Shown piece after piece: positions 19,568 to 36,604 of a stretch of 64,000 nt of DNA (its first letter is position 1; every line of letters begins with the position of its first letter). The notes under the pieces were generated by a model. It was given only the letters and a program-made list of their open reading frames with translations. It was not told where the DNA came from and searched no databases. Made by a program: the position numbers and the translations under genes. The DNA comes from Tolumonas auensis DSM 9187 (lineage in GTDB: Bacteria; Pseudomonadota; Gammaproteobacteria; Enterobacterales; Aeromonadaceae). The stretch is taken from positions 1,532,501 to 1,596,500 of the forward strand of contig NC_012691.1 in assembly GCF_000023065.1 (NCBI RefSeq), given 5' to 3'.

Positions 19568-20317
19568 TTAGTGCGTGGAGACCATTGAACCGAAACGAAC
19601 TTTACAACCTGCACCCGGGGTTGTATCTGCGCCAATTTTTTCCTGACAGTAAGAACCCGCTTTAAAATAAAACTTCTGAAGTTTCCAGTTAGGGTCGGTG
19701 CCAACATAGTCATAAGTTGCAGTGCCGCCACCAGCTACACTAACGTTTACTACTCCGGCATTAGAATCAATGGTGTAACAGAATTTGTTAGCGCCCGGAG
19801 AGGCCAGTTTGGTTTTGATTTCACCATTCTCGCCGTTTTCCTGACGCTTGATCTGTGCATATACATCGCCGTTATACCACTGCAGTTTGACCAGTGGTAC
19901 ACCGTAGCTATGGATCTGACCGATAATCACTTTTTTGCTCATGGAAACCTGAGATACCCACACACATGCCTGTAAGGTATGGTGTCCTTCCCAGTTCCAG
20001 TCATCACGTGAATTATCACCAATGATTTCACGCAATTCGGAACGGGGATATGAGGAGTTTGGCGTCGTTGCCAGTTTGCCGTTTACAGGCGTCCAGAAAG
20101 TCATTTTACCTTTATCATCCAGATAGAAATATTTACTGGCGTAACCGGCCATTATTTCGTCTGGTGATATTTCTGCTGCATCACCGCTACTATCGGCAAT
20201 CGGCAATGTTATTTTCCATTGACGTAAATCGAAATTACCTGTGGCGGGTGAAATATAAGTGGTGGCTGCTTGTACTGATGCCATAGATAACAGGCATAAC
20301 AAAATTAATTTCTTCAT
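19568..20317 (-). CDS. Secreted alginate lyase, polysaccharide lyase family 7
   Basis: A 249-residue protein with a signal peptide (MKKLILLCLLSMASVQA, cleavage before ATTY) and a single PL7 jelly-roll domain. The three PL7 catalytic blocks are present: RSELRE, QIH, and YFKAGSYCQ (family consensus YFKAGxYNQ). It would cut alginate by beta-elimination in the periplasm or outside the cell. The QIH form of the second block has been linked to activity on G-containing blocks, but that is only a tendency. The ATG at 20317 is preferred to an in-frame one 36 bases earlier because it starts the signal peptide. It is transcribed divergently from the alginate biosynthesis operon, across a 980-bp regulatory region. 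Confidence 0.92.
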   Translation of the reverse strand: MKKLILLCLLSMASVQAATTYISPATGNFDLRQWKITLPIADSSGDAAEISPDEIMAGYASKYFYLDDKGKMTFWTPVNGKLATTPNSSYPRSELREIIGDNSRDDWNWEGHHTLQACVWVSQVSMSKKVIIGQIHSYGVPLVKLQWYNGDVYAQIKRQENGENGEIKTKLASPGANKFCYTIDSNAGVVNVSVAGGGTATYDYVGTDPNWKLQKFYFKAGSYCQEKIGADTTPGAGCKVRFGSMVSTH

Positions 20318-20494
20318 ATAGCTACTCAAAAAATATAAAAATATAATCACCACACCTTTCGGATGGTGATGAGTGAAATTCCAGAAATGGAAAATTAAAT
20401 ACGCAGGAATAGCTCTTCCTGAATCAGGGAATTGCTATTTCAACATCGTATATCCGATTTCATCAAATCTGATTTTTGGGGGGGGGTATATATT

Positions 20495-20537
20495 CCGCAG
20501 TAGTTTCCGCTGGCATATGCAACGGAAACTATTGCGG
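20495..20537. repeat. Long inverted repeat (15-bp arms)
   Basis: CCGCAGTAGTTTCCG (20495-20509) pairs with CGGAAACTATTGCGG (20523-20537), 14 of 15 positions Watson-Crick plus one G-U, with a 13-base loop. There is no T-run on either side, so it is not a simple terminator. It could be an RNA element, an operator or the remnant of a mobile sequence. Confidence 0.6.
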
Positions 20538-20625
20538 ACAGAGGTATCGTTCGCATCAGCTTTCATCTGGAAGTCCTCGAGCTCTTCAAGGCAATTACAC
20601 ACCTGTGCTAATTCTCACAGGGCGG

Positions 20626-20658
20626 TACCCGGATATAATCTACAGACATTACCCGGAT
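20626..20658. repeat. 9-bp direct repeat, possible paired activator site
   Basis: TACCCGGAT occurs at 20626-20634 and again at 20650-20658, 24 bp start to start, slightly more than two helical turns. Identical spaced repeats in a divergent promoter region suggest a protein-binding pair. Confidence 0.4.
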
Positions 20659-21006
20659 GCATTTATCATGACGGAATTAAAATAAATATCAATATGTGAT
20701 TTTTTGAAAACTTATATTTAATAAGTAACTTCATGATAGATATAATAATTTATTTTTCGTTCTTTTGAATTATTCCGGTGGGATTTATATGGGTTTGTTT
20801 ATGCAAATAAAGACTATTTTGGTGCATTCTCTTTCTATATTAATTGAATTAAGTAATTAACATAGTAACAAATATATTAAAACCTATATTACTTCTTCAT
20901 AAATTAGTTTTATGAAAATAATGTTAATCCTATTGCTGCTATATCATGCAGTTTTTATGATTTTTGATTTAAATTGGTGCGAATGGAATATTCTGGGGTT
21001 GCAAAG

Positions 21007-21022
21007 TGGTGCAAAAATGGCT
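21007..21022 (+). promoter_or_regulatory. Candidate sigma-54 promoter (distal)
   Basis: TGGTGCAAAAATGGCT has the invariant GG (21008-21009) and GC (21020-21021) ten bases apart and matches 9 of 12 informative positions of TGGCACR-N4-TTGCW. It is about 275 bp from algD. Confidence 0.35.
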
Positions 21023-21177
21023 TTTTTTAAATTAGTTCTTCCTTATAAATAAGTGAATAACAGGTGTTAATTGAAACTCATTGGTTAAAAAATGAACAGG
21101 TAAATGATAATAAAAATCAGTCCCTTGGTTTGGGTTTCGGAAGTTTCGTGTTACTGAAATGTTAAATTGGTTAAAAT

Positions 21178-21194
21178 TTGGCCAGTTTTATGCT
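21178..21194 (+). promoter_or_regulatory. Candidate sigma-54 promoter upstream of algD
   Basis: TTGGCCAGTTTTATGCT has GG at 21180-21181 and GC at 21192-21193, ten bases apart, and matches 9 of 12 informative positions of the RpoN consensus. A start near 21205 would leave a 93-base leader before algD. A sigma-54 activator of LuxO type is encoded 20 kb away in the same window. Confidence 0.45.
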
Positions 21195-21297
21195 CTTAAT
21201 CACACTGCGTTAAACATATCGTATTGGGAGAGTGCTGTTGACTTAGTTCATGGTGTCAATGCATCACAATGGAATGCATAACTGAAAGGAGCGCTTC

Positions 21298-22608
21298 ATG
21301 CGTATCAGTATTTTTGGTATGGGTTATGTCGGCGCAGTTTGTACTGCCTGCCTTGCACAGCGTGGCCACCTGATTATCGGGGTCGATGTTTCCAAACAAA
21401 AAGTGGAGCTAATCAATGCGGGCCGTTCGCCCATTGTTGAACCTGGGTTGGATGAACTGCTGACGGCAGGAAAAATCGCCGGACGTATCAGAGCCACGAC
21501 AGACTATATGGATGCCATCCATAACAGTGACATTACAATGGTGTGTGTACCGACTCCGAGCAAACGTAACGGGGATCTGAGTCTGGAATATATTGAAGCC
21601 GTGTGCCGTGAAATAGGCATGGCGATGCGCGAAAAAACCTCCCGTCATACGGTTATTATCCGCAGTACTGTTCTGCCGGGAACGGTGAAAGAGACGGTGT
21701 TACCTATTCTCGAAGATTGTGCCCAGATGAAAGCGGGTGCTGATTTCGGGTTGGGTGTTAACCCGGAATTCCTGCGTGAAAGTACGGCGATTCGTGATTA
21801 TGACGAGCCACCTATGACCGTAGTTGGCGTGTTGGACGAAGAAACCGGCCGTTTGATGGAGCAGCTTTACAGCGACTTACATGCACCGTTTATCTGCAAA
21901 CCTATCGAAGTCGCGGAAATGGTGAAATACACCTGCAATGTCTGGCATGCCGTTAAAGTCAGCTTTGCGAATGAAATCGGCAGTATTGCAAAAGCGCTGA
22001 ATGTGGATGGCCGTGAGGTCATGAATGTGGTGTGCCGTGATCATAAACTGAATATATCCAGTTATTACATGAAACCAGGTTTTGCATTCGGTGGTTCGTG
22101 CTTGCCGAAGGATGTCCGGGCACTCAATTACCGGGCTGCCAAACTGGATATTCACACTCCGCTGATTTCATCGGTCATGGCGAGTAATGAATATCAGGTC
22201 AAGCGTGCGTTTGAGGTGATTGAGTCACTGAATAAACGCCGGGTGGGGATGCTGGGGTTGAGCTTCAAAGCTGAAACGGATGATCTGCGCGAAAGCCCGC
22301 TGGTTGAACTGGCGGAGATGTTGATAGGTAAAGGATATCAACTCTCCATTTATGACCGCAACGTTAAGTTTGCCAGCGTACACGGTGCTAACCGTGATTA
22401 CATCAACGGCAAAATTCCTCATGTTTCTTCACTGCTGGCGGAAAACGAATCGGATTTACTCGACAACGTTGATGTTTTGATTGTCGGTAATAAAGATAAG
22501 GCTTTCCAGGCCATGATGGAGTCGTGGCCTGAGGATAAATATCTGGTCGATCTGGCCGGGTTCATGACCAATACCTCTGTGTTTAATAAACAGGGTATTT
22601 GCTGGTAA
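21298..22608 (+). CDS. algD: GDP-mannose 6-dehydrogenase
   Basis: Oxidises GDP-mannose to GDP-mannuronic acid with two NAD+, the committed step of alginate synthesis. The 436-residue length equals that of Pseudomonas AlgD and the sequence is collinear: N-terminal Rossmann motif FGMGYVGAVC, then NPEFLRESTAI, the catalytic cysteine C268 in GGSCLPKDVRAL, and the C-terminal LDLAGFMTN-like end finishing in GICW as in AlgD. The conserved LSFKAETDDLRESPLVEL block is present. AAGGAG lies seven bases before the ATG. First gene of a fifteen-kilobase operon in which all genes run the same way. Confidence 0.97.
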   Translation: MRISIFGMGYVGAVCTACLAQRGHLIIGVDVSKQKVELINAGRSPIVEPGLDELLTAGKIAGRIRATTDYMDAIHNSDITMVCVPTPSKRNGDLSLEYIEAVCREIGMAMREKTSRHTVIIRSTVLPGTVKETVLPILEDCAQMKAGADFGLGVNPEFLRESTAIRDYDEPPMTVVGVLDEETGRLMEQLYSDLHAPFICKPIEVAEMVKYTCNVWHAVKVSFANEIGSIAKALNVDGREVMNVVCRDHKLNISSYYMKPGFAFGGSCLPKDVRALNYRAAKLDIHTPLISSVMASNEYQVKRAFEVIESLNKRRVGMLGLSFKAETDDLRESPLVELAEMLIGKGYQLSIYDRNVKFASVHGANRDYINGKIPHVSSLLAENESDLLDNVDVLIVGNKDKAFQAMMESWPEDKYLVDLAGFMTNTSVFNKQGICW

Positions 22609-22768
22609 CAACGGGTCGGCAGTCCGTCGTTCTGACTGTTGCTTGTTAATCACTGATCGCACACTTTTGCTCCATTAATTAATGGGTTGGGGTTTCTTTT
22701 CCCTGTGTTCTGCAAAAGTGTTGCGATCCCCTGATTATTCCTGCCGGGAATGGCGGAATGGGGGCGTT

Positions 22769-24241
22769 ATGGAACGGATGCAAACGATTTCCGGCTGGTT
22801 TCTATTAGGTTCTCTGCTGTGTGCTTTAGCACTGATGGTGCCGCCGTCTGTGTTTAAAACTGATCATCCGGAGTTTCTGCTGGTGGTCGGTGGTGTGGGG
22901 ATTTGGCGATATAGCGTCGGCCTTATGCATTATCTGCGTGGACTGTTTTTCTGTTACGTAGTGTTTCCCCGTCACCGGAAACTGGCTGTAAAAGCAGAGG
23001 CCGAACAACCGCCGTCACACATCTATCTGATGGTGACCAGTTTTCGTATTGATGCGATGACAACAGCAATGGTCTACCGGTCGGTGATTGCCGAGGCGAT
23101 CGCCTGCGGTTATCCGGCTACGGTCGTGGCATCAATTGTCGAGATGTCGGATGAATCACTGATCAATATGTTATGGCAACAGGCGAATCCGCCTGCGGAG
23201 CGGGTGACGTTGCACTTTGTGCGTATTCCCGGCACGGGTAAGCGCGATGGATTGGCTAACGGCTTTCGGGCAATCGCCCGGGATATGCCGGATAAGCAGG
23301 CGCTGGTGGCGGTTGTGGATGGCGATACTGTGTTATCGGATGGCATTATCCGGAAATCCTGCCCTTATTTTTCGTTATTCCCTCAGGTCGGGGCCCTGAC
23401 GACGAATGAATATTGCGATGTGTTAGGCAGTTACTGGATGAGCCAGTGGCACAAGCTGCGTTTTGCACAGCGTCATATCAGCATGTGTTCCATGGCGCTG
23501 TCCAAACGGGTGTTGACGCTGACCGGCAGAATGTCGTTATTCCGTGCCGAGGTTGTTACAGAACCCGATTTTATTTCTGACGTGGAAAATGATCATCTGG
23601 ATCACTGGCGGCTGGGACGTTTCAAATTTCTGACCGGTGATGATAAATCCAGCTGGTACAGCATGATGCGGCAGGGCTGGGATACCTATTATGTGCCGGA
23701 TGCGGAGATCACCACCGTAGAGCATCCGCCCTCAAAGCATTTTCTGGCGGCTGCACGCCAGCTGATGTTCCGCTGGTATGGCAATTCATTGCGACAAAAC
23801 TCCCGTGCCACCCGTCTAGGGGGAAAACGGCTGGGCTGGTTCACCTATTACGTATTGTTTGATCAGCGGATCTCGATGTGGACCAGTGTATTGGGGCTGA
23901 CAGCGGCTGTGTTGGCGGCAATCAAGTATGACATCGGCTATCTGGTGATCTATTTACTGTGGATTGCGCTGACCCGGACGGTGGTTTCGCTGATGTTACT
24001 GGCCTCTGGCCACCATGTGGGGCCGGGGTTTCCGCTCATGCTGTATTTCAATCAAATCTTTGGTTCATTAATCAAAATCTATGTGGTGTTTCGTTTGGAT
24101 CGTCAGTCGTGGACACGTCAAAACACCAAACTCAAACATGATCATGGTGCTTTTCAAACCTGGTTTAACCGCTGGTCCACCTCTGCTATGACGTTTTCGG
24201 CAGTCAGTGTGTTTCTTGCGGTAGTCGTTCATCTGGTTTAG
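22769..24241 (+). CDS. alg8: Alginate polymerase, GT2 glycosyltransferase Alg8
   Basis: A 490-residue inner-membrane family-2 glycosyltransferase that polymerises GDP-mannuronate into polymannuronate. N-terminal membrane segments (about 7-25 and 35-65) precede the catalytic domain: [36 protein letters not shown] (DxD metal site), then [18 protein letters not shown] and the QxxRW-like stretch [16 protein letters not shown]. Several C-terminal membrane segments follow. Alignment with Pseudomonas Alg8 (MHRLKQAAGW) fixes the start at the ATG at 22769 instead of 22682. It acts with Alg44, encoded next. Confidence 0.95.
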
Positions 24242-24304
24242 TCCGGCCAGCTGTTAATGCCAGCGACAGGGCGCCATTGAGGCTGCAAAGGAAGGGGATG
24301 AAAG

Positions 24305-25492
24305 ATGACAACTGCAAACTTGAATCTGGTTCATGAAACCGAAGCTCAGCGACGTCATGCCCGGGTGAAAATTCCAGCGCGTTTGATCGTTACAGATCAT
24401 CAACATAATCAATATGTACTGGAAATTAATGAGATTTCAGCCAGCGGCTTCAGTGTGGTTGATGAAGAGTCCCGTTTACACCTGAAACACATCTATAAGG
24501 GACGCCTGTTATTTATCTTTGACTCGGTTGAATTTGTACTGAAAGTGAATTTTCAGGTGATAAATGAACTCATGGAAGAACATCGTTTTGGCTGTGAGTT
24601 TCAGGATCTGGGAATACAGGAAGTATCAACCTTGCGGTTACTGATCAGCAAATTCCTCGGTGGCGAGATCGCCCGGGTTAATGACGTTCTGACGACCATG
24701 AACCGGGAAAACTTCACGAAAGCGAGAAAAGTGAATACCAGTGCAGGGTTAACCGGCTGGGCACGGGTCAAGGCATTGTCGGTGACGCTGGTCGTGTTTG
24801 CGATTGGCCTTGGTGCCTTTATCTCTTTGCTGACGACGCTGGCAACACATTTTCTGATGACCAATGCCCGCAGCGCGTCGGTGGTATTACCACAGCTCTC
24901 AGTGTTGATGCCAAGAGAAGGCAACGTCGACTTACTGGTGAAAATCGGGAGTCAGGTCAAAGCGGGTATGCCGGTCGCCCGGATACAGGCGCCGTGGACT
25001 GAACAGTTAACGACCATGCTGAAAAGCAGCGCATCGTCCGATCCTGAATTGCTTTCATTGTTACAAACACAAATGAATTACCCCCTGACGAGCCCCTGCG
25101 ATTGTGGGGTGGTCGGTGTGGGTGTGATGGCTGACGGACAGTTTCTGGAGCGGGATAAAGCAGTGGTACAGCTGGTGCCAGCGCAGAGTAAACCTTATAT
25201 ACAGGCGAATTTTGATTATGCCGATTACGCCGGTTTGACTGCAGGCTCAAAAGTCTCTCTGACCTTACCGGGTTTATCTCCTGAACTGAGCGGTACCGTG
25301 AGTCAGGTAGTAATGAATGAACAAATGCCTAATCAAACGCAGGGGGTTGTTTCGGTCGTGGTGATTCCGGATAAACCGCTTCCGGCTGCAGCGGTAGGTT
25401 CTCCTGTGGCGGTATCGATAGCGCCTTCCTGGCTGGGGCAGTTATACCAGACGGCGCAGGAATTACTTACCAGGATTATTCCCACTCCCTGA
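24305..25492 (+). CDS. alg44: Alginate co-polymerase Alg44 with PilZ c-di-GMP domain
   Basis: A 395-residue inner-membrane protein needed for alginate polymerisation. Residues 14-110 are a PilZ domain: RRHAR (R16, R20) and the second motif EISASG (E43, S45, G48). In Pseudomonas Alg44 the corresponding acidic residue is Asp (DLSAGG), so this protein has a conservative D-to-E change in the c-di-GMP site. A membrane segment at about 160-185 is followed by a periplasmic barrel-sandwich/HlyD-like domain with SPCDC, as in Alg44. It implies post-translational activation of the polymer synthase by c-di-GMP. Confidence 0.93.
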   Translation: MTTANLNLVHETEAQRRHARVKIPARLIVTDHQHNQYVLEINEISASGFSVVDEESRLHLKHIYKGRLLFIFDSVEFVLKVNFQVINELMEEHRFGCEFQDLGIQEVSTLRLLISKFLGGEIARVNDVLTTMNRENFTKARKVNTSAGLTGWARVKALSVTLVVFAIGLGAFISLLTTLATHFLMTNARSASVVLPQLSVLMPREGNVDLLVKIGSQVKAGMPVARIQAPWTEQLTTMLKSSASSDPELLSLLQTQMNYPLTSPCDCGVVGVGVMADGQFLERDKAVVQLVPAQSKPYIQANFDYADYAGLTAGSKVSLTLPGLSPELSGTVSQVVMNEQMPNQTQGVVSVVVIPDKPLPAAAVGSPVAVSIAPSWLGQLYQTAQELLTRIIPTP

Positions 25493-25503
25493 GAGGGCAA
25501 GTC

Positions 25504-26772
25504 ATGAAACACTCTATTCTGTTGATTTTATTAATAAGTGGTGGGTTGCTGGCCTGTCAGAATAAAACCACTCAGCTCCAGAAAAAAAGCCGGATCGATA
25601 TCAATCCGGTCACACAATGGCACTCCTTGCAGGAGTCGGGTTATGCCGGTGCCAGACCGGAACCCGGCGAAACGCGGGAAATGCTGTGGGCTCAGCAGAC
25701 ACGCCGAGGCGATGTCGCGTATGAGCTGATCATGTTCTACAGCCAGTATCCGCAGCACCCCGGCAAAGATAAATTACTGACGCTTGTCCGGCAGGCCGAT
25801 AAACGCCTGGCACCCAGTCAGCGTATCTGGCTCTGGGCCATGCTACGTCTGCCGGATGCCCTGAAAACAGAAACCACCGCGGCAGAGTTAAAGTCAGTCT
25901 GCCAGAACATCGCGGTGACTACGCCGGCATTTGGCTACACGCAACCTTCTAATCTGCAGTTATGCCGGCGTTTGCAACTGATGGCATTACGTCAGCAAGG
26001 TGACGCAGGATGGCCTGAACTGTTTGCGGCAATAAAAGCTGATCTGGATTCTAACCGTCTGCTGGACAGTGATGTTGTGCCGTTGATGACAACATTAACC
26101 AGCAGTTCTTCAGGGGCGCCGATGAGTAAACCGGCGATCGAGCTGGCAAGTCTGGCCGGTGGACGGAATCCGCAGGTCGAACTGATGCTGGCTGGTTTAT
26201 TACTCGGTCAGCCTGGCGAAGACGCAGAAACCAGCCAAATCGAAAAACGTCTCGTGGTATTGCATCAGCAAGGGGAAAAACAGGCTGCCTATTTACTCGG
26301 TCGTCTTTATCTGGAAGGGCGCAGAACAGTAGCGGATCCCCATAAAGCCGAAAACTGGCTGAAACAAAGTACCGAATTACCTGAAGCCAGTTATTTACTG
26401 GGACGACTGTACCTCAGTGGCATGCTGGATGGTGAGCTTCGTGTGCAGGAAGGTATAAACCTATTGGTCAAAGCAGCAAGAGAAGGCTACAGCAAAGCGG
26501 ACGTTGCTCTGGCAGATGCCTTCCTCCATACGCCGGGAATAAAAGCGAATCCTGTTTATGCCTGGGTTTTTGCCTCCCTTGCATTGGAACAACGGCCTGA
26601 CAGCCGCAAAGAGCAACAGCGGTTAGCCGATCTGAAATTAGATCTGCGCCAGCAGCAACAGGCTTCGGTGTTATTGGCGCAAGAGCGCAATAGCAGAAAA
26701 TTCAGAACAGCAGCACAGCTACCTCAGCTTCAGACACAAGTCAGTCAGACTGAGTTAGTCAGTAATTTCTAA
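25504..26772 (+). CDS. algK: AlgK-like outer-membrane lipoprotein with Sel1/TPR repeats
   Basis: A 422-residue lipoprotein. The signal sequence ends in the lipobox LLAC (cysteine at residue 18). The mature protein is alpha-helical, with Sel1-type repeats recognisable near AAYLLGRLYLEGRRTVADPHKAENWLKQ and ASYLLGRLYLSG. AlgK in Pseudomonas is a TPR lipoprotein that positions the AlgE porin and links the synthase to the outer membrane. Its place after alg44 and before algG is the standard one, but the algE gene that should follow is missing. Assignment rests on architecture and position more than on detailed sequence identity. Confidence 0.82.
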   Translation: MKHSILLILLISGGLLACQNKTTQLQKKSRIDINPVTQWHSLQESGYAGARPEPGETREMLWAQQTRRGDVAYELIMFYSQYPQHPGKDKLLTLVRQADKRLAPSQRIWLWAMLRLPDALKTETTAAELKSVCQNIAVTTPAFGYTQPSNLQLCRRLQLMALRQQGDAGWPELFAAIKADLDSNRLLDSDVVPLMTTLTSSSSGAPMSKPAIELASLAGGRNPQVELMLAGLLLGQPGEDAETSQIEKRLVVLHQQGEKQAAYLLGRLYLEGRRTVADPHKAENWLKQSTELPEASYLLGRLYLSGMLDGELRVQEGINLLVKAAREGYSKADVALADAFLHTPGIKANPVYAWVFASLALEQRPDSRKEQQRLADLKLDLRQQQQASVLLAQERNSRKFRTAAQLPQLQTQVSQTELVSNF

Positions 26773-26823
26773 CCGGAATGATGTTCTGTCCGCATTGCGG
26801 AACCGCTGATCAAGGAGTTGATC

Positions 26824-28377
26824 ATGAACAGAATGCTATTAGTCAGTATTACGGCTGCAGGATTGATGCTGGCGAGCCTGGTACAGGCTGTTCCTTATGA
26901 TATTCAGACTATTCAGCAAAATATGCTGGTTCAGGCTGTGCCTGAACTTCCGGATCTGAGCCGTTATACCCGACAAGCGGTGCTTGAGAAGCAGGCTAAA
27001 TGGCATAAAAAAACAGAAAAAGTCAATTTAGAGCGCATGATCAACGACATTGCTACCCGGAAATTTTTCAAAGGCGGCAAGTTAGGTGTATGGGCGAAAA
27101 AACAGGGGCAATTCCCGAAAGCCGTGTTTGTGCATGATGGTTTGCTGACGTTACCTGCACTTCACCAGCGTTTGCCTGATGCGTTAGTCAAGCTGAACAG
27201 TCATCAGTATTTACTGCGTTACCCGATTGTTGTCATGAACGGTGCGGCTTTGGCGATCTCGCCGGGAGAAGAGTTGTTAATGTCGCATGAACGCGGCAGT
27301 TTTGTGGTTAATGCCGGTGACTTTTTCATGGTGGACGGTGCCTTGCGTGGCTGGCGCGAAAAAGAAAAGGCTCCGGCCCGTTATGACGGTAACCGCGAGG
27401 AATACCGCCCGTTCTATATAGGCTGGAGTGGTTCCGGTACATACATCTATGGTTCTTTACTGGAGAGCCTGGGGTCATATAACAGTAAAGCGTATGGCTT
27501 TACACTCTCTACTTATACCGAACAGGATAGAATGTATGCGCCGATCGGGCTGAACCTCCATCAACGACCAACCGGCTGGCTGATCAACAGTCGGATCACC
27601 GATGTCTATTATGGTTTTTATTCCTATGAAGCCGAAAATGTCGCACTCGTCGGCAATAAATATTACGACAACATCTATTACGGTATTGATCCGCATGATC
27701 ACTCCTACCGCCTGATCATTGCTAAGAACGAAGTCTGGGGAACCCGCGAACGTCACGGCATCATCGGCTCACGGGATGTCAGCCATTCCTACATATTTGG
27801 CAATGTCACTCACGACAACAAACTGGCCGGTATCATGCTGGATCGGGCCAGCAATCATAATGTCATCGTACAGAACAGCAGTTATAACAACGGCAGTGAT
27901 GGCATCTCTATTTATGAAAGCCATCAGAACCTGATTGCCGCCAACCAGATCTACAACAACAAATTCCACGGTATTCGCTTTCGTAACAGCCTGGCTATCC
28001 GCATGCAGGACAACGTGATCCTGCAAAATGGCCGATATGGAATTTACGGTCATCTCAGTGATCTCATGGTTACCTATGACGCTGATTCAGGACATGAACC
28101 ACGCGATCTGAAATTAGATCCCTATGAAATGCGGGGCTCGGGTTCTGTCTCCGGCGGGATCATTGCCATGAACGGCAGCGGTGCGTTGTTTACCCAGGGG
28201 CTTGAAGAGATCGGCATTGGCAAACTGACCCTGGATCAAAATGGTCGTCGCGGCAACATCACGCTGGGCGGTGATTTATTGCCCTACAGCGATGAAATCG
28301 CCCGGGTATGGTATGGCGATTCCGCACCCGTTTATTTCCGTCAACCGCATTTATCACGCATGAATGGCCAGGGATGA
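26824..28377 (+). CDS. algG: Mannuronan C5-epimerase AlgG
   Basis: A 517-residue periplasmic enzyme that converts some D-mannuronate residues of the nascent chain to L-guluronate. Signal peptide MNRMLLVSITAAGLMLASLVQA (first 22 residues). The C-terminal two thirds is a right-handed parallel beta-helix of CASH repeats; the active-site DPHD motif is at 289-292 (YYGIDPHDHS), and segments such as ERHGIIGSRDV and FHGIRFRNS match Pseudomonas AlgG. The ATG at 26824 has AAGGAG six bases upstream. AlgG also protects the chain from AlgL as part of the periplasmic scaffold. Only 51 bases separate it from algK, leaving no room for algE. Confidence 0.95.
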   Translation: MNRMLLVSITAAGLMLASLVQAVPYDIQTIQQNMLVQAVPELPDLSRYTRQAVLEKQAKWHKKTEKVNLERMINDIATRKFFKGGKLGVWAKKQGQFPKAVFVHDGLLTLPALHQRLPDALVKLNSHQYLLRYPIVVMNGAALAISPGEELLMSHERGSFVVNAGDFFMVDGALRGWREKEKAPARYDGNREEYRPFYIGWSGSGTYIYGSLLESLGSYNSKAYGFTLSTYTEQDRMYAPIGLNLHQRPTGWLINSRITDVYYGFYSYEAENVALVGNKYYDNIYYGIDPHDHSYRLIIAKNEVWGTRERHGIIGSRDVSHSYIFGNVTHDNKLAGIMLDRASNHNVIVQNSSYNNGSDGISIYESHQNLIAANQIYNNKFHGIRFRNSLAIRMQDNVILQNGRYGIYGHLSDLMVTYDADSGHEPRDLKLDPYEMRGSGSVSGGIIAMNGSGALFTQGLEEIGIGKLTLDQNGRRGNITLGGDLLPYSDEIARVWYGDSAPVYFRQPHLSRMNGQG

Positions 28378-28388
28378 GGAGACAGATC

Positions 28389-29750
28389 ATGACAAATTAC
28401 CGGAATATGTTGATGGTCGTAGCTCTGGTATGTGGTTCATCACTCGCAGCCACTCCCGGGAGTGCAAATGATCCCCAATATGTGGCTGAACCTTGTTGTC
28501 AGCTGTGCCCTGATGCTCAGCAGGGAAATGCGAATGTCCCCGGTGGATTACAGGAAGGGCGTGATGGCTGGTTATTCACGTCAGCCAGTCGGGCATTGGC
28601 ACCCGCGGATTCAGAATACCGGATGTTGTTGTCGTTATTTGCACGGCAATTAGCAGAAAAAGGCACTTCTCTGATGCTGGTGATGCCGCCGCCGCGTTCA
28701 TTGATGTATGCCGAAAAACAACGGGGAAAAAGCGATGCGGATAGTTTGCAGATGTATCTGCAAACGCTGAATGAGTTCCGACAAGCGGGGATCCAGGTTC
28801 CAGCCTATGAACAACTATTACTTCAGACCGGGGAGAAAACCGAGCCGTTTTTCTTCAAGCGGGATCTGAACTGGACATCGGCCGGCGCGCGTAAAAGCGC
28901 AGATTTTGTGGCGACGGAGATCCGCAAGTTACCACTATTTCATCAATTACCGGAACAGCGTTTCGTCACACAAACCCAGGGCTGGCTGAAAGTAAGTGGC
29001 GAGTTAAATAATCAGTCCGGCGCGGCGTGCGGGGGGCAACGTTACCCGCTGGAATATACACCACACGTTGTAACGCAGGCTGTCAGCGACGACACGAATA
29101 AACCCAATCGTATTTTGCTGGTGGGCTCCAGCCGCTCTGTAGACAGCCATTTTAATTTCAATGGATTTCTGCAACAGGCGCTGGCCCGCAAGATTGAAAA
29201 TCATACCGATGCCACCGGCAACAGCACTCAGAGCTGGCTGAAAATGTTAGCTTCAGATCGTTTCCAGCATCAGCCGCCGGCTCTGGTCTTATGGGAGTTG
29301 CCCTATGAAAGCCGGGAATTAAGCACATCTCTTTTACGTCAAATGGTGGCACTGGTCGGGAATGGTTGTGAAACCAGACCTGTGCTTCTGCATGAGGTAA
29401 AAACCATTTCCGTGCCGCAAACAGAAGATCTGATATTTGCCAATAAGTTGCTTGAAACCGCGCCGGAACAACTGGTCTTTGATCTGACTTTTAATAATCC
29501 CAAAATCGAGCAACTGCTGCTGACCGTCTGGTTTTCTGATGGAGGCAAAAGTGATTTTCAAATCAGGAAAAATACAGCTTCCGTGACGGATGGTCGTTTC
29601 AGCTTTGTTCTCGGAAACATTCAGTCCAAACAACAGCGCCAGTTCGTGTCGATGGATTTGACCCTTCCCGACAGTCAGAGCCGGAATCTCAAAGTCAGCG
29701 CCAATGTATGCCGTTTGCAGGGCAAGTTACTACAGGCAGCGGGGAGATAA
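28389..29750 (+). CDS. algX: AlgX-like alginate scaffold protein with altered acetyltransferase site
   Basis: A 453-residue periplasmic protein with an N-terminal signal peptide and AlgX architecture: an SGNH-like domain (about 55-330) and a C-terminal carbohydrate-binding module (about 345-453). FFFKRDLNWTSAGAR aligns with the Pseudomonas segment FFRTDHHWTPYGAR, where Asp174 and His176 are catalytic. Here the Asp is kept (D159) but the His is N161 (codon AAC at 28869-28871). The nucleophile region is VGSSRS (245-250), with the Ser retained. Loss of the His predicts no O-acetyltransferase activity, consistent with the missing algI/J/F genes; a scaffold role would remain. GAGGAGA precedes the ATG at 28389. 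Confidence 0.9.
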   Translation: MTNYRNMLMVVALVCGSSLAATPGSANDPQYVAEPCCQLCPDAQQGNANVPGGLQEGRDGWLFTSASRALAPADSEYRMLLSLFARQLAEKGTSLMLVMPPPRSLMYAEKQRGKSDADSLQMYLQTLNEFRQAGIQVPAYEQLLLQTGEKTEPFFFKRDLNWTSAGARKSADFVATEIRKLPLFHQLPEQRFVTQTQGWLKVSGELNNQSGAACGGQRYPLEYTPHVVTQAVSDDTNKPNRILLVGSSRSVDSHFNFNGFLQQALARKIENHTDATGNSTQSWLKMLASDRFQHQPPALVLWELPYESRELSTSLLRQMVALVGNGCETRPVLLHEVKTISVPQTEDLIFANKLLETAPEQLVFDLTFNNPKIEQLLLTVWFSDGGKSDFQIRKNTASVTDGRFSFVLGNIQSKQQRQFVSMDLTLPDSQSRNLKVSANVCRLQGKLLQAAGR

Positions 29751-29752
29751 CC

Positions 29753-30907
29753 ATGAAACAGCCTCTCTGGTTTTTAGGTATATGGTTCATGGCTGCTCAG
29801 GTTCAGGCTGAATTACTGGCTCCCGGGGGGTATCTGCAAGGTTCTTTGCAATTAAAGGAATCCGGTAAAGCGTTGGTTTGTCCGGCTGTCGCTGTGTACT
29901 CCGGTGAACTGGATCTGCCGAGTAAATATGTACAGACAGAAAAATCAAAAGATGTGATTGATGAAGAGAATGATGCCCGTTATAAGGCACTTTCTGCACC
30001 CATGTCAGATTTACAGCAACTTTCCGCCACCATGACAGACCGATTGTTTAAGGGGAAAGGGACGGCGGGAGACATGGCCTGTTTACGTCGTCACTGGCTG
30101 GCCTGGGCGGAAGCGGATGCCTTATTGCAACCGGCTAAAACTGCATCCGGTAAGGCGGTGCGTAAATGGACACTGGCTGCGATTTCGGCCAACTATCTGA
30201 AAATAAAGCTGAATCTTCCATCAGAAGATACGCCGTTATTTCCCAAAACCGAGCAACAGGCGTTAGAAAACTGGCTGGCAAAATTAGCCATGGAAGTCAT
30301 GCCCGACTACAGCAATCGCCGGCCGGAGCAAATTAATAATCACGACTACTGGGCGGCCTGGGGGGTGATGGCAACAGCTGTGGTGCTGAACCGGCAGGAT
30401 ATGTTCGATTGGGCCGGTAACGTTTATCAAACCGCAATGATGCAAATTACCGCGGAAGGCATTTTGCCCAATGAGCTGAAACGCCGCAGCAAAGCACTCA
30501 GTTATCACAATTTTGCACTGCAGCCGCTGGTCTTGCTGGCTGCATTTGGTGAGGCCAATCAACAGCATTGGCTGGAAGCAAAAAATTCCGCACTCCAGCG
30601 ACTGGCGAATCTGGTGATCAACAATGTCGATGACAGCCATTCACTGGAACAAGCCGCAGGCGTGAAACAGGCTGATGAAAGCTTGCGCGAACACAGCCGG
30701 CTTTCATGGTTAGCCCCCTACATCGCCATCTCCGGAGATAAGCGCTGGCTGCCGTTACTCAAATCATTATCGTCGCTGAAAACCACCCGGCTCGGCGGCG
30801 ATCTGCAATATCTCTATCTGCGAAATGAGCCTGGGCTGGCTGATAAACAAGCCCGTGTAGTCGTAGGGACGATGACGATCCCGAACAACATGGAGCAACA
30901 ATCATGA
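29753..30907 (+). CDS. algL: Periplasmic poly(beta-D-mannuronate) lyase AlgL (PL5)
   Basis: A 384-residue PL5 lyase with signal peptide (MKQPLWFLGIWFMAAQVQA). The diagnostic motif is INNHDYWAAW (NNHSYWAAW in Pseudomonas), with the second conserved region KRRSKALSYHNFAL containing the Arg and Tyr used in beta-elimination. AlgL degrades polymer that is mislocalised in the periplasm during export, and is essential or nearly so in strains that make alginate. It follows algX directly (three-base gap), and its TGA overlaps the ATG of algA (ATGA). Confidence 0.93.
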   Translation: MKQPLWFLGIWFMAAQVQAELLAPGGYLQGSLQLKESGKALVCPAVAVYSGELDLPSKYVQTEKSKDVIDEENDARYKALSAPMSDLQQLSATMTDRLFKGKGTAGDMACLRRHWLAWAEADALLQPAKTASGKAVRKWTLAAISANYLKIKLNLPSEDTPLFPKTEQQALENWLAKLAMEVMPDYSNRRPEQINNHDYWAAWGVMATAVVLNRQDMFDWAGNVYQTAMMQITAEGILPNELKRRSKALSYHNFALQPLVLLAAFGEANQQHWLEAKNSALQRLANLVINNVDDSHSLEQAAGVKQADESLREHSRLSWLAPYIAISGDKRWLPLLKSLSSLKTTRLGGDLQYLYLRNEPGLADKQARVVVGTMTIPNNMEQQS

Positions 30908-32373
30908 TTCCTGTGATTTTGTCTGGTGGTAGTGGCTCACGACTCTGGCCGCTTTCCCGTAAACAGTATCCAAAGCAATTTCTGAATCTGTTGGGAGAAC
31001 ACACACTTTTACAGCAGACAGTAATGAGATTACCGGAAAAACAGTTCGGTAAACCATTTCTGGTTTGTAATCAGCTGCACCGGTTTATTGTCCGGGAGCA
31101 AATGCAGCATATCAAACGGTCAACCCACAGTGTGTTGCTTGAACCGTTTGGCCGGAATACAGCACCTGCCGTGGCACTGTCCGCCATGCTGATTCTTGAA
31201 GAACAAGATGATGATCTGATGCTGGTGTTGCCGGCTGATCATGTGATCCGTGATGTTCCGGCTTTTCATGCAGCGCTGGAACGGGGCCGGGTCGCAGCGG
31301 AACAGGGCAAGCTGGTGTTATTCGGTATCGTGCCGACCGCACCGGAGACCGGCTATGGCTATGTGAAAAGTCATAACGTCAATGGCATGGAGGCCGTGCC
31401 AGTAGAACGATTTGTCGAAAAACCAGATCGAGCTACCGCCATCAACTTCCTGGCCAGTGGCGATTATTTCTGGAACAGCGGCATCTTTATGTTTAAAGCC
31501 AGCCGCTACCTTCAGGAACTGAAGAAATTCCAGCCGTACATCTACGATAACTGCCAGTTGTCGCTGGAGCGTAAATTCCGCGATCTCGATTTCTGGCGTA
31601 TCGATCCGGACAGTTTCGCTTTCTGTCCTGACGATTCCATTGACTACGCCATCATGGAAAAAACCGATGATGCGGTAGTAGTGCCACTACAGGCCGGATG
31701 GAGTGATGTCGGTAGCTGGTCTGCGTTGTGGGAAGAGCAGGACAAAGACGAGAACTTCAATCTGGTAAAAGGCGAAGCTGAACTGATAGATACCGGGCAC
31801 AGCTATGTTCATACCACTCATCGTCTGGTTAGTCTGATCGGTATGCAGGATACCGTCGTGATAGAAACCAAAGACGCGGTACTGGTTGCGAATATCAACA
31901 AAGTGCAGGACGTGAAACAGCTGGTGAAACAGCTGGAAAAAGAAGATCGCCCGGAAGTGCAGCACCACCGGGAAAAATTCCGGCCCTGGGGCAGTGTGGA
32001 TTCCATTGATAAAGGCCAGCGGTTTGGTGTCCGGCATATGGTGATTCAACCAGGGCAAAGCATTTCGTTACACCGGCATTTACACCGGTCCGAACATTGG
32101 GTGGTTGTTTCCGGGTGTGCGCAGGCCACGATCGGAGAAGAGACCGTTCTGATGGGCGAAAACCAGTCGACCTATATTCCGGCAGGAATCTTTCACCGCC
32201 TCAGCAACCCCGGCCAGGTGCCACTGGAGATCATCGAGATCCAGACCGGGAGTTATTTGCAGGATAACGATATTGAACGCATCGCGGATATGTATGGCCG
32301 TGTCAATGAACGGGATTCAGTGCCTGTTCAGGGCTGGCCTATGGCGCAAGGCGTTCGGATCATTCCGCATTAA
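30904..32373 (+). CDS. algA: Bifunctional mannose-6-phosphate isomerase / mannose-1-phosphate guanylyltransferase
   Basis: A 489-residue enzyme with both ends of the GDP-mannose route. The N-terminal nucleotidyltransferase domain has GGSGSRLWPLSRKQYPKQF (guanylyltransferase signature) and FVEKPD; the C-terminal cupin (about 385-470) is the type II phosphomannose isomerase domain with LHRHLHRSEHWVVV. It makes mannose 6-phosphate from fructose 6-phosphate and GDP-mannose from mannose 1-phosphate. The start overlaps algL by four bases, indicating translational coupling. In Pseudomonas algA is the last gene of the operon; here three more genes follow. Confidence 0.95.
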   Translation: MIPVILSGGSGSRLWPLSRKQYPKQFLNLLGEHTLLQQTVMRLPEKQFGKPFLVCNQLHRFIVREQMQHIKRSTHSVLLEPFGRNTAPAVALSAMLILEEQDDDLMLVLPADHVIRDVPAFHAALERGRVAAEQGKLVLFGIVPTAPETGYGYVKSHNVNGMEAVPVERFVEKPDRATAINFLASGDYFWNSGIFMFKASRYLQELKKFQPYIYDNCQLSLERKFRDLDFWRIDPDSFAFCPDDSIDYAIMEKTDDAVVVPLQAGWSDVGSWSALWEEQDKDENFNLVKGEAELIDTGHSYVHTTHRLVSLIGMQDTVVIETKDAVLVANINKVQDVKQLVKQLEKEDRPEVQHHREKFRPWGSVDSIDKGQRFGVRHMVIQPGQSISLHRHLHRSEHWVVVSGCAQATIGEETVLMGENQSTYIPAGIFHRLSNPGQVPLEIIEIQTGSYLQDNDIERIADMYGRVNERDSVPVQGWPMAQGVRIIPH

Positions 32374-32467
32374 CTCAATAACAAATGCCGGGTTGACTGG
32401 TGCCGATAACAGGCACTGGTCAGTCATAGTGCGCAATCGGAACAGTTGATAGCAGAGGAAAAGCAAA

Positions 32468-33841
32468 ATGGGATCATTTAATTGCTTTAAGGCCTACGAT
32501 ATTCGTGGGCGACTCGGTGAAGAGCTTGATGAAGATGTTGCTTATCGTATTGGTCGTGCTTTCGTCCGATACCTCAGTGCCCATTCGGTTGTAGTCGGTG
32601 GTGACGTCCGCCTTTCGAGTGAGCCTTTAAAACAAGCCTTGATCCAGGGGCTGCGTGACAGTGGTGCCAATGTCATCGATCTGGGTATGACCGGTACAGA
32701 AGAAATATATTTTGCTACCTGGTTTTTAGGTGTTGATGGCGGTATCGAAGTGACCGCATCCCACAATCCAATCGATTATAACGGAATGAAACTGGTCAGA
32801 GAGGGAAGTCGCCCGATCAGTGGTGATACCGGATTAGGCGAAATCCGGCGTATGGCTGAAATGATCGACTATGGTCCGCAAGCAGAAACTCCCGGGAGCT
32901 ACCGCAAAGAGAGTTTGCTTTCTGCTTATGTTGATCACCTGATGACGTATATCGATCTCGAAAACATTCAGCCAACCCGACTGGTGGTCAACTCGGGTAA
33001 TGGTGCTGCAGGGCATGTCATTGATGCAATTGAGCGTGTTTTCATCAGCCGGAACGTGCCGGTCGAGTTTATCAAGATCCATCATGAACCCGACGGTACC
33101 TTTCCGCATGGTATTCCTAATCCGCTGTTACCTGAAAATCGCAGCGATACCGAGCGGGCAGTTCAGGCGTATGGCGCCAGAATGGGCATTGCGTGGGATG
33201 GTGATTTCGACCGTTGCTTCCTGTTTGATGAACATGGCGAGTTCATCGAAGGTTATTACATTGTGGGCTTGCTGGCGGAAAGTTTCCTGCTCAAGAAACC
33301 GGGTGCCAGCATCATTTACGATCCCCGTCTGACCTGGAATACCGAAGAAATTGTCGCTGACAATGGTGGTATTCCGGTTATGTCAAAGACCGGGCATGCG
33401 TTTATTAAAGAACGGATGCGGGCAGAAGATGCCATTTATGGTGGTGAGATGAGCGCACATCATTACTTCCGCGATTTTGCTTACTGCGACAGTGGCATGA
33501 TCCCATGGTTGTTAGTGCTGGAACTGCTTTCCGTCCGGGGCAAACCGCTCTCCACGCTGGTGGAGGAAAGGATCGCCCGTTTTCCATCCCCCGGTGAAAT
33601 CAACAGCCATCTCAGCGAACCGCAACATGCCATACAGCGAGTATTGGCCACATACAGCAATGCCGCCCGGCACATCGATTACACCGATGGGATCAGTCTT
33701 ACCTTTGATGACTGGCGATTTAATCTGCGTAGCTCAAATACCGAACCGGTTGTCCGGCTCAACGTTGAATCACGTGGCAACGTGGCGTTGATGCAGGAAA
33801 AAACCGATGAAATATTAACGCTGTTGCGTCAGGGAGGATGA
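32468..33841 (+). CDS. cpsG: Phosphomannomutase (CpsG/ManB type)
   Basis: A 457-residue alpha-D-phosphohexomutase that converts mannose 6-phosphate to mannose 1-phosphate. The phosphoserine loop is [13 protein letters not shown], the metal loop is [10 protein letters not shown], the sugar loop is [13 protein letters not shown], and the C-terminal phosphate loop is LRSSNTEPV. Overall it resembles enterobacterial CpsG/ManB (FKAYDIRG near the start) more than Pseudomonas AlgC. Pseudomonas algC is unlinked to its alginate operon, so its inclusion here makes the cluster self-sufficient for GDP-mannose. GAGGAA lies before the ATG. Confidence 0.93.
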
Positions 33842-33845
33842 AATC

Positions 33846-35105
33846 ATGAAAATGAAGGAAGAAACATTTCAGGCGGTATGGCAGGCCATTGGCAGTGAAT
33901 CACTGCAACAACCACTCTGGCTGAAAAATAGTTTGCAACACTATGAGTGGGGCACAACCGACGTTTTACCCTGGTTGCTGGGTATTGCCAATCCGGAGCA
34001 ACAACCTCAGGCTGAGGTCTGGGTCGGGGCACATCCCAAGGCACCTTCAGAAGTTATTTTCCCTGAGGGCAGCGTCATGCTGGATAAACTGATCGACAGT
34101 CAACCCCATGCGGTACTGGGTGCGCATTCGATCACACGTTTCGGGCCAAAACTCCCGTTTTTATTCAAAATTCTCTCTGCCAGAAAGGCTCTGTCCATTC
34201 AGGTTCATCCTGACTTGGCTCAGGCACAAGCCGGGTTTGCGCATGAGGAGGCTGTTGGCATTCCGATTACCGCGCCAGAACGTAATTATCCGGATGCCAA
34301 TCATAAGCCGGAGCTGCTGTATGCCTTGACCCCGTTTTACGGATTGATTGGTTTCCGGCCGATTGACGAAATAGTGCGTCTGTTAACGCTGGCCGGTGAA
34401 CAGCAATTACTGCAATGGGCAGAGCATCTGCAAAAAGGGAGAGAATCTGCATTAGTTCCCTTTTATCGCTGGCTTTTGTTGTTATCACACAAAGAGGTTA
34501 CACATTTACTGTCTGCCATATCACCCAGCCTGCAATTCAATCCGGAACCGACATTTACCGAGATCCAGCGACTGGCGCATGAATACCCGGCTGATAGCGG
34601 TGTTCTCGCTCCGCTGGTATTGAATCTGGTATCTCTGGTTCCGGGGGAGGCAATCTTCATTCCGGCCAGAACCCCGCATGCTTATTTGCGGGGTACGGGT
34701 ATCGAAGTCATGGCCTGTTCCGACAATGTGCTGCGGGCCGGATTGACGCCAAAACATATCTCCCCCGGTGAGCTGCTGAACACAGTGATATTCCAGAGTA
34801 TGCAACCAGAAATCATACGACCGGCAGTTGTTGGAATGGAACAACGCTTTTCTGTTCCGGTGGATGATTTTGAGTTGTCGATTGTGCGTCTGCAACAGGG
34901 GGATCATTTCCCTGCGGGTATGTCGGCCGATGCAGAGTTGCTCTATTGCCTGAAAGGTGAAGTTTCACTGACGAATGAACTCGGCGAGTCCTGGCTATTA
35001 GCACCGGCAACAAGTGTGTTATTGCCTGCCGCCAGTACAGGATGGCAATTAAGTGGTTATGGAAAGATAGCCCGAGTGCGTATCAGACCGTCGTTGATGC
35101 ATTAA
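33846..35105 (+). CDS. manA: Mannose-6-phosphate isomerase, type I
   Basis: A 419-residue zinc-dependent isomerase of the ManA family. Recognisable segments are WGTTDVLPWLLG, AEVWVGAHPKAPS, FLFKILSARKALSIQVHPDLAQA (zinc ligands in the QVHP region), NHKPELLYAL and IFIPARTPHAYLRGTGIEVMACSDNVLRAGLTPKH (the last two sets are standard ManA motifs). It duplicates the isomerase activity already present in the C-terminal domain of AlgA, so the operon carries both type I and type II isomerases. The start follows the cpsG stop by four bases with GGAGGA upstream. Confidence 0.94.
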   Translation: MKMKEETFQAVWQAIGSESLQQPLWLKNSLQHYEWGTTDVLPWLLGIANPEQQPQAEVWVGAHPKAPSEVIFPEGSVMLDKLIDSQPHAVLGAHSITRFGPKLPFLFKILSARKALSIQVHPDLAQAQAGFAHEEAVGIPITAPERNYPDANHKPELLYALTPFYGLIGFRPIDEIVRLLTLAGEQQLLQWAEHLQKGRESALVPFYRWLLLLSHKEVTHLLSAISPSLQFNPEPTFTEIQRLAHEYPADSGVLAPLVLNLVSLVPGEAIFIPARTPHAYLRGTGIEVMACSDNVLRAGLTPKHISPGELLNTVIFQSMQPEIIRPAVVGMEQRFSVPVDDFELSIVRLQQGDHFPAGMSADAELLYCLKGEVSLTNELGESWLLAPATSVLLPAASTGWQLSGYGKIARVRIRPSLMH

Positions 35106-35167
35106 TCAATGTGGCCTGATTTTTAATTATGCAGAAAAATCAGGCTGCGTTATCCGGAGAAAAGCTC

Positions 35168-36463
35168 ATGAAACTAAATGTGCTCATCTTTTTATCGTTG
35201 TCAGTCTGGCTGTGGTCAGCGCAGGCCAGCGGAAGTTGCAGTAGTACCAATGTGCGTTATGCCAGTTCAAGTAACATCCTTTATATACAGACCGGCGGGG
35301 TTTGCGGGCTGGGTGAGATTTCCGCCTTCAGACCGAAACAACTGGTGAATCAGGGCAGTGGAGTCTATTTGCTTAAAACCAATCTGAAATTGACGGATGG
35401 GTCGGTTTTGCTGGTGGATGGTGATGACCTTGCTGCGCCAGTATCTGAACTCCGGCTATTGTCTAACAATACGGGTACAACAAATAGCGTGGTGAATATC
35501 ACCGCCGATTACGGGACAGTACAGATCAATAACACGAAAATCACCTCGTGGGATGAAGCTGTTCAAGGGCCGGATACAGAATATGGCACGTATAAACGCG
35601 CTTATATCAGAGTTCGGTCATCGACAGTGGATAAGCAATCCCGTATGGATATTTCCAACAGCGATATTGGGTATCTCGGTTATTACGCGTCTGAATCGTA
35701 TGGGCTGACGTGGAAGGTAACCGGTCCGTTAACTCAAGTCCGGGTGTTCGGTAATATTATTAATAGCCGTATTCATCATAACTACTTCGGTGTGTTCACC
35801 TATGGCGCGTACGGCATGATGATCAGTGATAATGAAGTCGATCACAATGTGAAGTATGGCCTTGATCCACATGATGATTCTGATTACCTCAGTATCATTG
35901 GCAATAGCGCTCATCACAATGGTAATCACGGCATTATCTGCTCACAGCGTTGTGACAATCTGGTGATCCGCGATAACAGCAGTTACAGCAATACCGGACA
36001 CGGCATCATGCTACATCGTTCGGTTGACTACACACTGGTGGAGAATAATCTGGTTTTTGATAATACAGATACGGGCATCGCATTATTTGAAAGTAACAAT
36101 AACGTGCTGAGGGGGAATATCGTGCAAGGTAATGTACGTGGGATCCGCCTGTCCGTTGGTTCATCAAATAATCAGATTGAAGGTAATATGATTTTTGGCA
36201 ATACGGGAAACAGCATATATACCTATCAGGGCTCAGATACACCTGCGCGGGCCGGTAATGATGGTATCAACCGGAATAATAACTGGTTCCAAAATACGGT
36301 GACCGCCAGTGGCAACTACGTTCTTAAATTGAATGCCACCGATCAGGATAGTTTCAGTGATAATGATTTTACTGGGAATCCAGACGCCAAATTTTCGGTA
36401 CAAGGCGCCACGAACACCAGTTATACCAATAATCTGCTGGATCCGGGCATGACGTTACCCTGA
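35168..36463 (+). CDS. Second secreted parallel beta-helix C5-epimerase-like protein
   Basis: A 431-residue protein with a signal peptide (MKLNVLIFLSLSVWLWSAQA) and a right-handed parallel beta-helix from about 150 to 400. Its repeats have the form NxIxxNxxxGI, and the epimerase active-site motif is present as KYGLDPHDDSDY (DPHD at 233-236), in the same context as in AlgG. It lacks the long AlgG N-terminal region. It has a cysteine-containing N-terminal domain (about 20-60) of unknown type. The likely role is further mannuronate epimerisation, possibly outside the cell; a polysaccharide lyase cannot be excluded from the fold alone. GGAG precedes the ATG at 35168; a strong terminator follows, so it is probably the last gene of the operon. 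Confidence 0.8.
   Translation: MKLNVLIFLSLSVWLWSAQASGSCSSTNVRYASSSNILYIQTGGVCGLGEISAFRPKQLVNQGSGVYLLKTNLKLTDGSVLLVDGDDLAAPVSELRLLSNNTGTTNSVVNITADYGTVQINNTKITSWDEAVQGPDTEYGTYKRAYIRVRSSTVDKQSRMDISNSDIGYLGYYASESYGLTWKVTGPLTQVRVFGNIINSRIHHNYFGVFTYGAYGMMISDNEVDHNVKYGLDPHDDSDYLSIIGNSAHHNGNHGIICSQRCDNLVIRDNSSYSNTGHGIMLHRSVDYTLVENNLVFDNTDTGIALFESNNNVLRGNIVQGNVRGIRLSVGSSNNQIEGNMIFGNTGNSIYTYQGSDTPARAGNDGINRNNNWFQNTVTASGNYVLKLNATDQDSFSDNDFTGNPDAKFSVQGATNTSYTNNLLDPGMTLP

Positions 36464-36527: not shown

Positions 36528-36604
<77 letters not shown>

Follow-up and report, generated by a model that had tools for sequence, protein, structure and literature searches.

In Pseudomonas and Azotobacter, the alginate secretion system is encoded in the order algD-alg8-alg44-algK-algG-algX-algL-algA, and the full standard order was found at 71 of the best 80 of 534 loci in our contig scan for alginate loci, which is dominated by Pseudomonas. 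AlgE is taken as the exit pore for alginate, and O-acetylation requires the AlgX residues D174, H176, and S269 (excerpts of PMC4148444). According to parts of PMC9734138, the contacts between AlgK and AlgX include AlgX residues 30–37 (E35) and AlgK Q372, R383, G402, and R404; deletion of AlgI, AlgJ, or AlgF leaves secretion, while deletion of AlgX compromises it. Portions of PMC7112194 describe atypical alginate operons from which loci for outer-membrane transport (algKE) or for modification have disappeared. Here, we analyzed a stretch of 64,000 nucleotides (hereafter the window; all positions refer to it) from the genome of the lake bacterium Tolumonas auensis DSM 9187, which consists of one contig of 3,471,292 bp. 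Open reading frames (ORFs) and family scans place an alginate unit in the order algD-8-44-K-G-X-L-A-C-manA-epimerase at 21298–36463, and we consider it very probable that this unit encodes a real, selected alginate system that works without AlgE and does not acetylate its product.

An earlier note, made from the sequence alone, had described a standard gene order in which only 51 bp separate algK from algG, where algE usually lies, and algA follows directly after algL. Both observations hold: the coordinates and the order are correct, the gap is too short for AlgE, and the ORF of algL overlaps algA, leaving no algI-J-F between them. The algK-algG spacing is 47 bp in five other Tolumonas genomes versus 1318–1397 bp in three AlgE-bearing genomes of the same order. 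Because these five relatives share both the gene order and the small gap, and the T. auensis genome is a single contig, a sequencing or assembly gap or chance was ruled out as the reason for the missing algE. The whole-genome AlgE profile search proposed in the note was run with controls and revealed no unlinked algE in T. auensis: a 15-row profile recovered 3/3 AlgE-bearing controls at E < 1e−149 (these three being themselves rows of the profile) and matched 0/11 Tolumonas genomes at E ≤ 10, four of which are < 90% complete, including the operon-carrying G251. An earlier 3-row profile, which matches P. aeruginosa AlgE in PDB at 5e−66, also gave 0/11 when run without control genomes. PF13372 had no match in the T. 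auensis genome at E ≤ 10, but on its own this family is a weak probe because it misses the true AlgE of genome G131 (locus L027), although that protein is 54% identical to a detected AlgE; it was therefore rejected as the sole probe, and the 15-row profile with its controls was used instead. A fusion of AlgK to a barrel was also rejected, as the predicted AlgK model is an all-helical tetratricopeptide repeat (TPR) solenoid (predicted local distance difference test, pLDDT, 79.2; residues 1–52 and 403–422 < 50) with the AlgK structures 3e4b and 7ula as nearest neighbors.

The genes for O-acetylation were followed beyond the operon as far as the families allowed. AlgI (MBOAT, PF03062) was found in 0/11 Tolumonas genomes at E ≤ 1, T. 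auensis included, in a search that matched 4/14 control genomes, none of them an alginate producer. The single PF16822 (ALGX domain) place in the T. auensis genome at E ≤ 1 is AlgX itself, so that no AlgJ was found in this genome, the one covered by that search. AlgF was not found within the operon of the six Tolumonas genomes that carry it, with no genome-wide AlgF search made, so the check for all three proteins suggested in the earlier note supports absence for AlgI and, in T. auensis, for AlgJ, and extends to AlgF within the operon only. In addition, alignment to 4knc shows that the catalytic His of T. auensis AlgX is replaced by Asn (RDLNW), by which the Asp-His-Ser triad is broken in T. 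auensis and kept in its five relatives; loss of the His as a genus trait was rejected, as T. auensis alone among the Tolumonas rows shows it. We surveyed 89 AlgX rows, one per locus (87 of the sequences are distinct); most come from Pseudomonas, and they are not independent of each other. L061 and L026, whose loci run into a contig edge, were left out of both counts, and L086 gave no AlgX row. The triad is broken in two rows, T. auensis and Pseudomonas insulae UL073 (L034, with Tyr in place of His and Gly in place of Ser), both from loci without algIJF, and it is intact in 77/77 rows whose locus carries algIJF. Since neither AlgI nor AlgJ was found in the genome and the catalytic His of AlgX is lost, there is a strong expectation that T. 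auensis alginate would be non-acetylated. The earlier note had predicted such a polymer, leaving through an unlinked or different pore or staying in the periplasm; the non-acetylated part is supported, an unlinked AlgE was looked for with controls and not found, and the other two fates are weighed as alternatives below.

The rest of the pathway is in place. All enzymes for the supply of GDP-mannuronate (AlgA, AlgC, AlgD) were found by family scans, the synthase pair consists of the GT2 Alg8 and the PilZ co-polymerase Alg44, and the catalytic motifs of AlgL (with the equivalents of H202/R249/Y256), AlgG, a second AlgG-like C5-epimerase (Epi2), and a divergent PL7 alginate lyase appear kept in alignments to solved structures inspected by eye. 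As judged from their sequences, the genes for sugar nucleotides, synthase (Alg8/Alg44), epimerases (AlgG, Epi2), and lyases (AlgL, PL7) are intact, and all reading frames of the operon are open. AlgD, Alg8, and AlgA are 91–92% identical between T. auensis and its relatives. The ratio of nonsynonymous to synonymous substitution rates (dN/dS), calculated pairwise for the five relatives, lies between 0.012 and 0.115 for 12/12 genes (10 comparisons per gene, 3 for PL7); it is restricted to these genomes because most genes are at or near synonymous saturation between T. auensis and them. By this measure, purifying selection acts on the operon genes in the relatives.

Within the genus, the operon occurs in 6/11 genomes, T. 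auensis included (of the five that lack it, three are 63–87% complete), and the reduced gene set without AlgE is identical in 6/6 of them. In the order as a whole, an AlgX match at E ≤ 1e−10 is present in 5/247 genomes, again including T. auensis. AlgE is present at 84/84 testable non-Tolumonas loci, with 78/78 in the contig scan (best 80 of 534; the L106 AlgE is truncated where its contig stops), 3/3 testable order-mates (L025, L027, and L028; L026 was left out), and 3/3 class-mates (L135–L137, chosen by AlgG at E ≤ 1e−60 among 369 genomes), and its loss was seen in Tolumonas only. Loci without algIJF are commoner than loss of AlgE (G131, P. insulae, L135–L137). In a quick Alg8 tree, Tolumonas forms one clade (support 100) within a group (99) shared with Vibrio fluminensis, Aestuariibacter, and G131, all of which bear AlgE. 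Because the tree nests Tolumonas among AlgE-bearing groups, the simplest reading by parsimony is that the ancestor possessed AlgE and that its loss would fall on the stem of Tolumonas, ahead of the divergence between T. auensis and the five relatives. The description of the operon as lying outside the usual Pseudomonas/Azotobacter range needs to be qualified, as alginate clusters also occur in Vibrio, Aestuariibacter, and Stagnimonas (among the best 80 of 534 loci).

How the polymer would leave the cell is less certain. We tentatively prefer a pore swap, in which AlgK-AlgX would be docked on a pore unrelated to AlgE and the AlgX of T. auensis would have turned from an acetylase into a pure chain guide; the broader statement, a selected non-acetylating AlgE-less system that exports through some non-homologous pore, comes nearer to an even chance but stays slightly under it. 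The chain would be made by Alg8/Alg44, partly epimerized by AlgG and Epi2, left unacetylated, and guided to AlgK by AlgX in a structural role rather than as an acetylase, after which the AlgK-AlgX complex might, with less confidence than for the preceding steps, pass it to the outer membrane via an AlgE-unrelated pore encoded elsewhere. AlgX is a strong candidate for a structural guide because its AlgK-binding N-terminus and the groove residues of AlgK persist: the equivalent of E35 is E in T. auensis (AEPC), and those of the four AlgK residues are Q, R, G, and K (positions by eye). A non-homologous pore is preferred because AlgK, AlgX, and their contact survive. At its C-terminus (26752–26769), T. 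auensis AlgK reads ELVSNF and the relatives read ELVNNF, a tail that other AlgK rows lack and that is conserved despite an overall AlgK identity of ~57%; it is possibly a docking signal.

AlgK and AlgX are also the most divergent parts of the machinery. AlgK scores 105 bits with NF038194 against an equivalog cut-off of 700 bits, which marks it as a divergent AlgK (in PHROGs, it matched one family, of unknown function). Between T. auensis and three relatives, AlgX and AlgK are 56–58% identical, AlgG 70%, and AlgL 72–73%, versus means of 83% (AlgX), 76% (AlgK), 85% (AlgG), and 82% (AlgL) in Pseudomonas/Azotobacter pairs matched at 90–92% Alg8 identity (6 pairs out of 350 sampled). In six protein trees, the distance between T. 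auensis and the relatives divided by the Pseudomonas/Azotobacter mean was 0.33 for Alg8, 0.51 for Alg44, 0.54 for AlgL, 0.67 for AlgG, 0.79 for AlgK, and 0.84 for AlgX, so that the last two are the fastest of the six relative to Pseudomonas. The acceleration extends beyond T. auensis, because this species and its relatives are about equally far from the outgroups. Such fast evolution would be expected if the partners of AlgK and AlgX had changed or been lost.

Several observations weigh against the pore swap. The acceleration of AlgK and AlgX is also compatible with relaxed constraint without any export, and the AlgK of T. auensis is missing 52 aa of N-terminal TPR and, close to its C-terminus, a further 12 aa, all of which the relatives keep. 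The five relatives and G131 retain the D, H, and S of AlgX though their loci lack algIJF, which a role as scaffold only does not predict. We identified no candidate pore in the T. auensis genome, in which the BcsC/PgaA, Wza, and KdgM families were not searched for, and the 396-aa barrel of the relatives discussed below (L117) has no match there at E ≤ 0.001. Finally, our literature searches gave no experiment demonstrating a uronic polymer from Tolumonas, and the terms “alginate” and “polysaccharide” are absent from PMC3236046 and PMC4653933.

The alternative that polymer is not exported at all comes close behind, because known producers mutated in AlgK, AlgX, or AlgG yield unsaturated oligomers, the expected product of AlgL (sections of PMC4444821); we regard it as doubtful but serious. 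Mannuronan would be epimerized in the periplasm and cut by AlgL and PL7 to unsaturated oligouronides, which would exit by general porins or be retained as a periplasmic glycan. It agrees with the clearance of periplasmic polymer by AlgL (excerpts of PMC8829089), with two conserved lyases that match solved active enzymes along their length, with a PL7 gene that has remained next to the operon in T. auensis and in three relatives despite their different flanks, and with the fastest evolution falling on AlgK and AlgX. However, it makes these two proteins dispensable, yet their dN/dS among the relatives is 0.115 and 0.093, respectively, and their mutual contact residues persist, while the divergently transcribed PL7 may act outside the cell.

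An AlgE orthologue diverged beyond detection, or its replacement by the 396-aa PF13372-type barrel, is improbable. The blindness of PF13372 to the genuine L027 AlgE is in its favor, as is the barrel itself (L117:802–1992 in G256), which reaches 31.1 bits in a whole-protein scan against a cut-off of 25.2 (the same places fall below the cut-off in the genome search). It is full length in G251, G252 (with a second, broken copy), G253, and G256, and a match of only 56 residues in G255, hence in 5/5 operon-carrying relatives with one as a fragment, versus 0/5 Tolumonas genomes without the operon, three of them 63–87% complete. Nevertheless, the 15-row profile that finds its controls so strongly finds nothing in Tolumonas, the distribution of the barrel tracks one close clade, and the gene adjoining it looks by eye like cheB rather than an alginate gene. 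The barrel could be the pore in four relatives; it cannot explain T. auensis, because that genome has no match, and with only the fragment in G255, it was rejected as the general exporter.

A decaying relic, unused after the loss of AlgE and AlgIJF, is very unlikely, since the AlgX without its catalytic His and the shortened AlgK stand against open frames throughout, dN/dS of 0.01–0.12 in the five relatives (with synonymous sites on the T. auensis branch at or near saturation for most genes), the high identity of AlgD, Alg8, and AlgA, and a PL7-alg-Epi2 unit kept in two different genomic settings.

Table 1. Genes and intergenic regions of the T. auensis alginate unit (positions in the window)
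Feature	Position	Strand	Evidence
PL7 alginate lyase (Alginate_lyase2)	19568..20353	-	PF08787 1.4e-50; transcribed divergently from algD; N-terminus resembles a Sec signal by eye
Divergent control region, 944 bp, AT-rich (33% GC)	20354..21297	.	blocks conserved in three relatives
algD, GDP-mannose dehydrogenase	21298..22608	+	PF03721/00984/03720; 92% identity to three relatives
alg8, GT2 mannuronan synthase	22769..24241	+	PF13641; 91% identity to relatives, 71% to G131 Alg8; start set by comparison with relatives (ORF open from 22682)
alg44, PilZ (c-di-GMP) co-polymerase	24305..25492	+	PF07238, PF13437; Alg44 4rt0 1.4e-17
algK, TPR/Sel1 outer-membrane lipoprotein, lipobox Cys18	25504..26772	+	NF038194 3.6e-30; structures 7ula_B, 3e4b
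algK-algG gap, 51 bp, usual algE site	26773..26823	.	algK stop 26772, algG ATG 26824
algG, periplasmic mannuronan C5-epimerase	26824..28377	+	NF038177 3.8e-126; 4nk6 8e-100, DPHD kept
algX, SGNH + CBM	28389..29750	+	PF16822, PF16824; 4knc 5.7e-51; RDLNW, N-terminal AEPC kept
algL, PL5 periplasmic mannuronate lyase	29753..30907	+	PF05426; 4ozv 1.2e-65
algA, PMI-GMP	30904..32373	+	TIGR01479 6e-207
algC/cpsG-like phosphomannomutase	32468..33841	+	PGM_PMM I-IV
manA, type I phosphomannose isomerase	33846..35105	+	PF20511
Epi2, second AlgG-like C5-epimerase	35129..36463	+	NF038177 5.3e-35 (below its cut-off); 4ozy 7.9e-22; DPHD kept; N-terminus Sec signal-like by eye

The full extent of the unit is given in Table 1. 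The divergent PL7 lyase, the loss of the AlgX active site, and the shortened AlgK had escaped the earlier note, which had instead presented cpsG, manA, and a second epimerase as gains of this operon. These are not special to it: algA-algC-manA also occurs in V. fluminensis (L032) and in the AlgE-bearing order-mate L025, and a 42% identical homologue of Epi2 lies beside the AlgE-bearing operon of G131. The nearest solved structure to PL7 is 2cws (A1-II', 1.2e−38). PL7 was counted as part of the unit because a ~70% identical gene stands at the same place beside algD in three relatives (L109–L111) whose outer flanks differ, and the PL7 and Epi2 neighbors are common to L027. In T. auensis, the genes beside the unit are presumably rlmKL and uup, and a tRNA-Met gene (36528–36604, minus strand) lies 64 bp past its last gene; tRNA was the only Rfam match at gathering scores between 16000 and 42600. 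As the unit has other neighbors in the relatives, the block appears to have moved. Against plasmids, AlgG matched 11 records (9 Rhizobium, Jannaschia, and Tateyamaria), each with < 60% identity and an alignment over less than 80% of the query.

In three relatives (L112–L114), nitrogenase genes lie downstream of the alginate unit, within ~14 kb of the operon end (nifH was scanned in L114, and nifD, nifK, and nifE in L112), with an AraC-type regulator, a GH3, and an alpha-amylase gene in between. A link between alginate and nitrogen fixation has been discussed for Azotobacter, and one is possible in Tolumonas. Using sigma54 and NtrC consensus patterns, a sigma54-like GG-N10-GC element was seen at 21179–21194 and an NtrC-like half site, ACTATTTTGGTGC, at 20813, both aligned in the control regions of T. 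auensis and three relatives; shuffled sequences give ~0.5 and 3–4 such matches per region and a 3-mismatch scan missed the G252 element, which makes these elements weak.

Alginate operons without outer-membrane transport genes are already published, and Tolumonas adds a variant to them. Our literature search turned up no apparent account of alginate or exopolysaccharide in Tolumonas, nor of a matching algE-less case, and the genus is absent from the main text of PMC7112194. Six related genomes retain the rest of the pathway but not the pore regarded as the alginate exit, and a cultured type strain allows one to ask whether AlgK-AlgX works with another pore or the pathway serves as a maker of oligouronides or periplasmic glycan. 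The expected product, a naturally non-acetylated, epimerized alginate, would be of interest for gels.

With the Pseudomonas/Azotobacter system, the T. auensis operon shares the order from algD to algA, but it lacks AlgE and AlgI/J/F, the catalytic His of its AlgX is Asn, and algC, manA, Epi2, and the divergent PL7 are present beyond the common set. The closest Alg8 outside the genus are those of V. fluminensis, Aestuariibacter, and G131, where L032 shares the algA-algC-manA tail and L027 the PL7 and Epi2; unlike Tolumonas, all three carry AlgE, and L031 and L032 also carry algIJF, which L027 lacks in its locus. The divergent clusters of the same class (L135–L137) resemble Tolumonas in having no acetylation genes in the stretch retrieved, but within it AlgE and AlgK are present and AlgX and AlgL are not, with Alg44 and AlgG found in them and Alg8 in L135 and L137; L135 and L136 have an extra gene of ~320 aa, which in L135 belongs to no Pfam family. 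In the environmental, deep-sea bacteria of PMC7112194 (in the parts that describe them), algKE were lost together, whereas Tolumonas keeps AlgK and AlgX and AlgE alone is gone. The P. insulae locus is like that of T. auensis in lacking algIJF and in its broken AlgX triad, and unlike it in keeping AlgE, and the two species would represent two natural separations of the catalytic and the structural role of AlgX.

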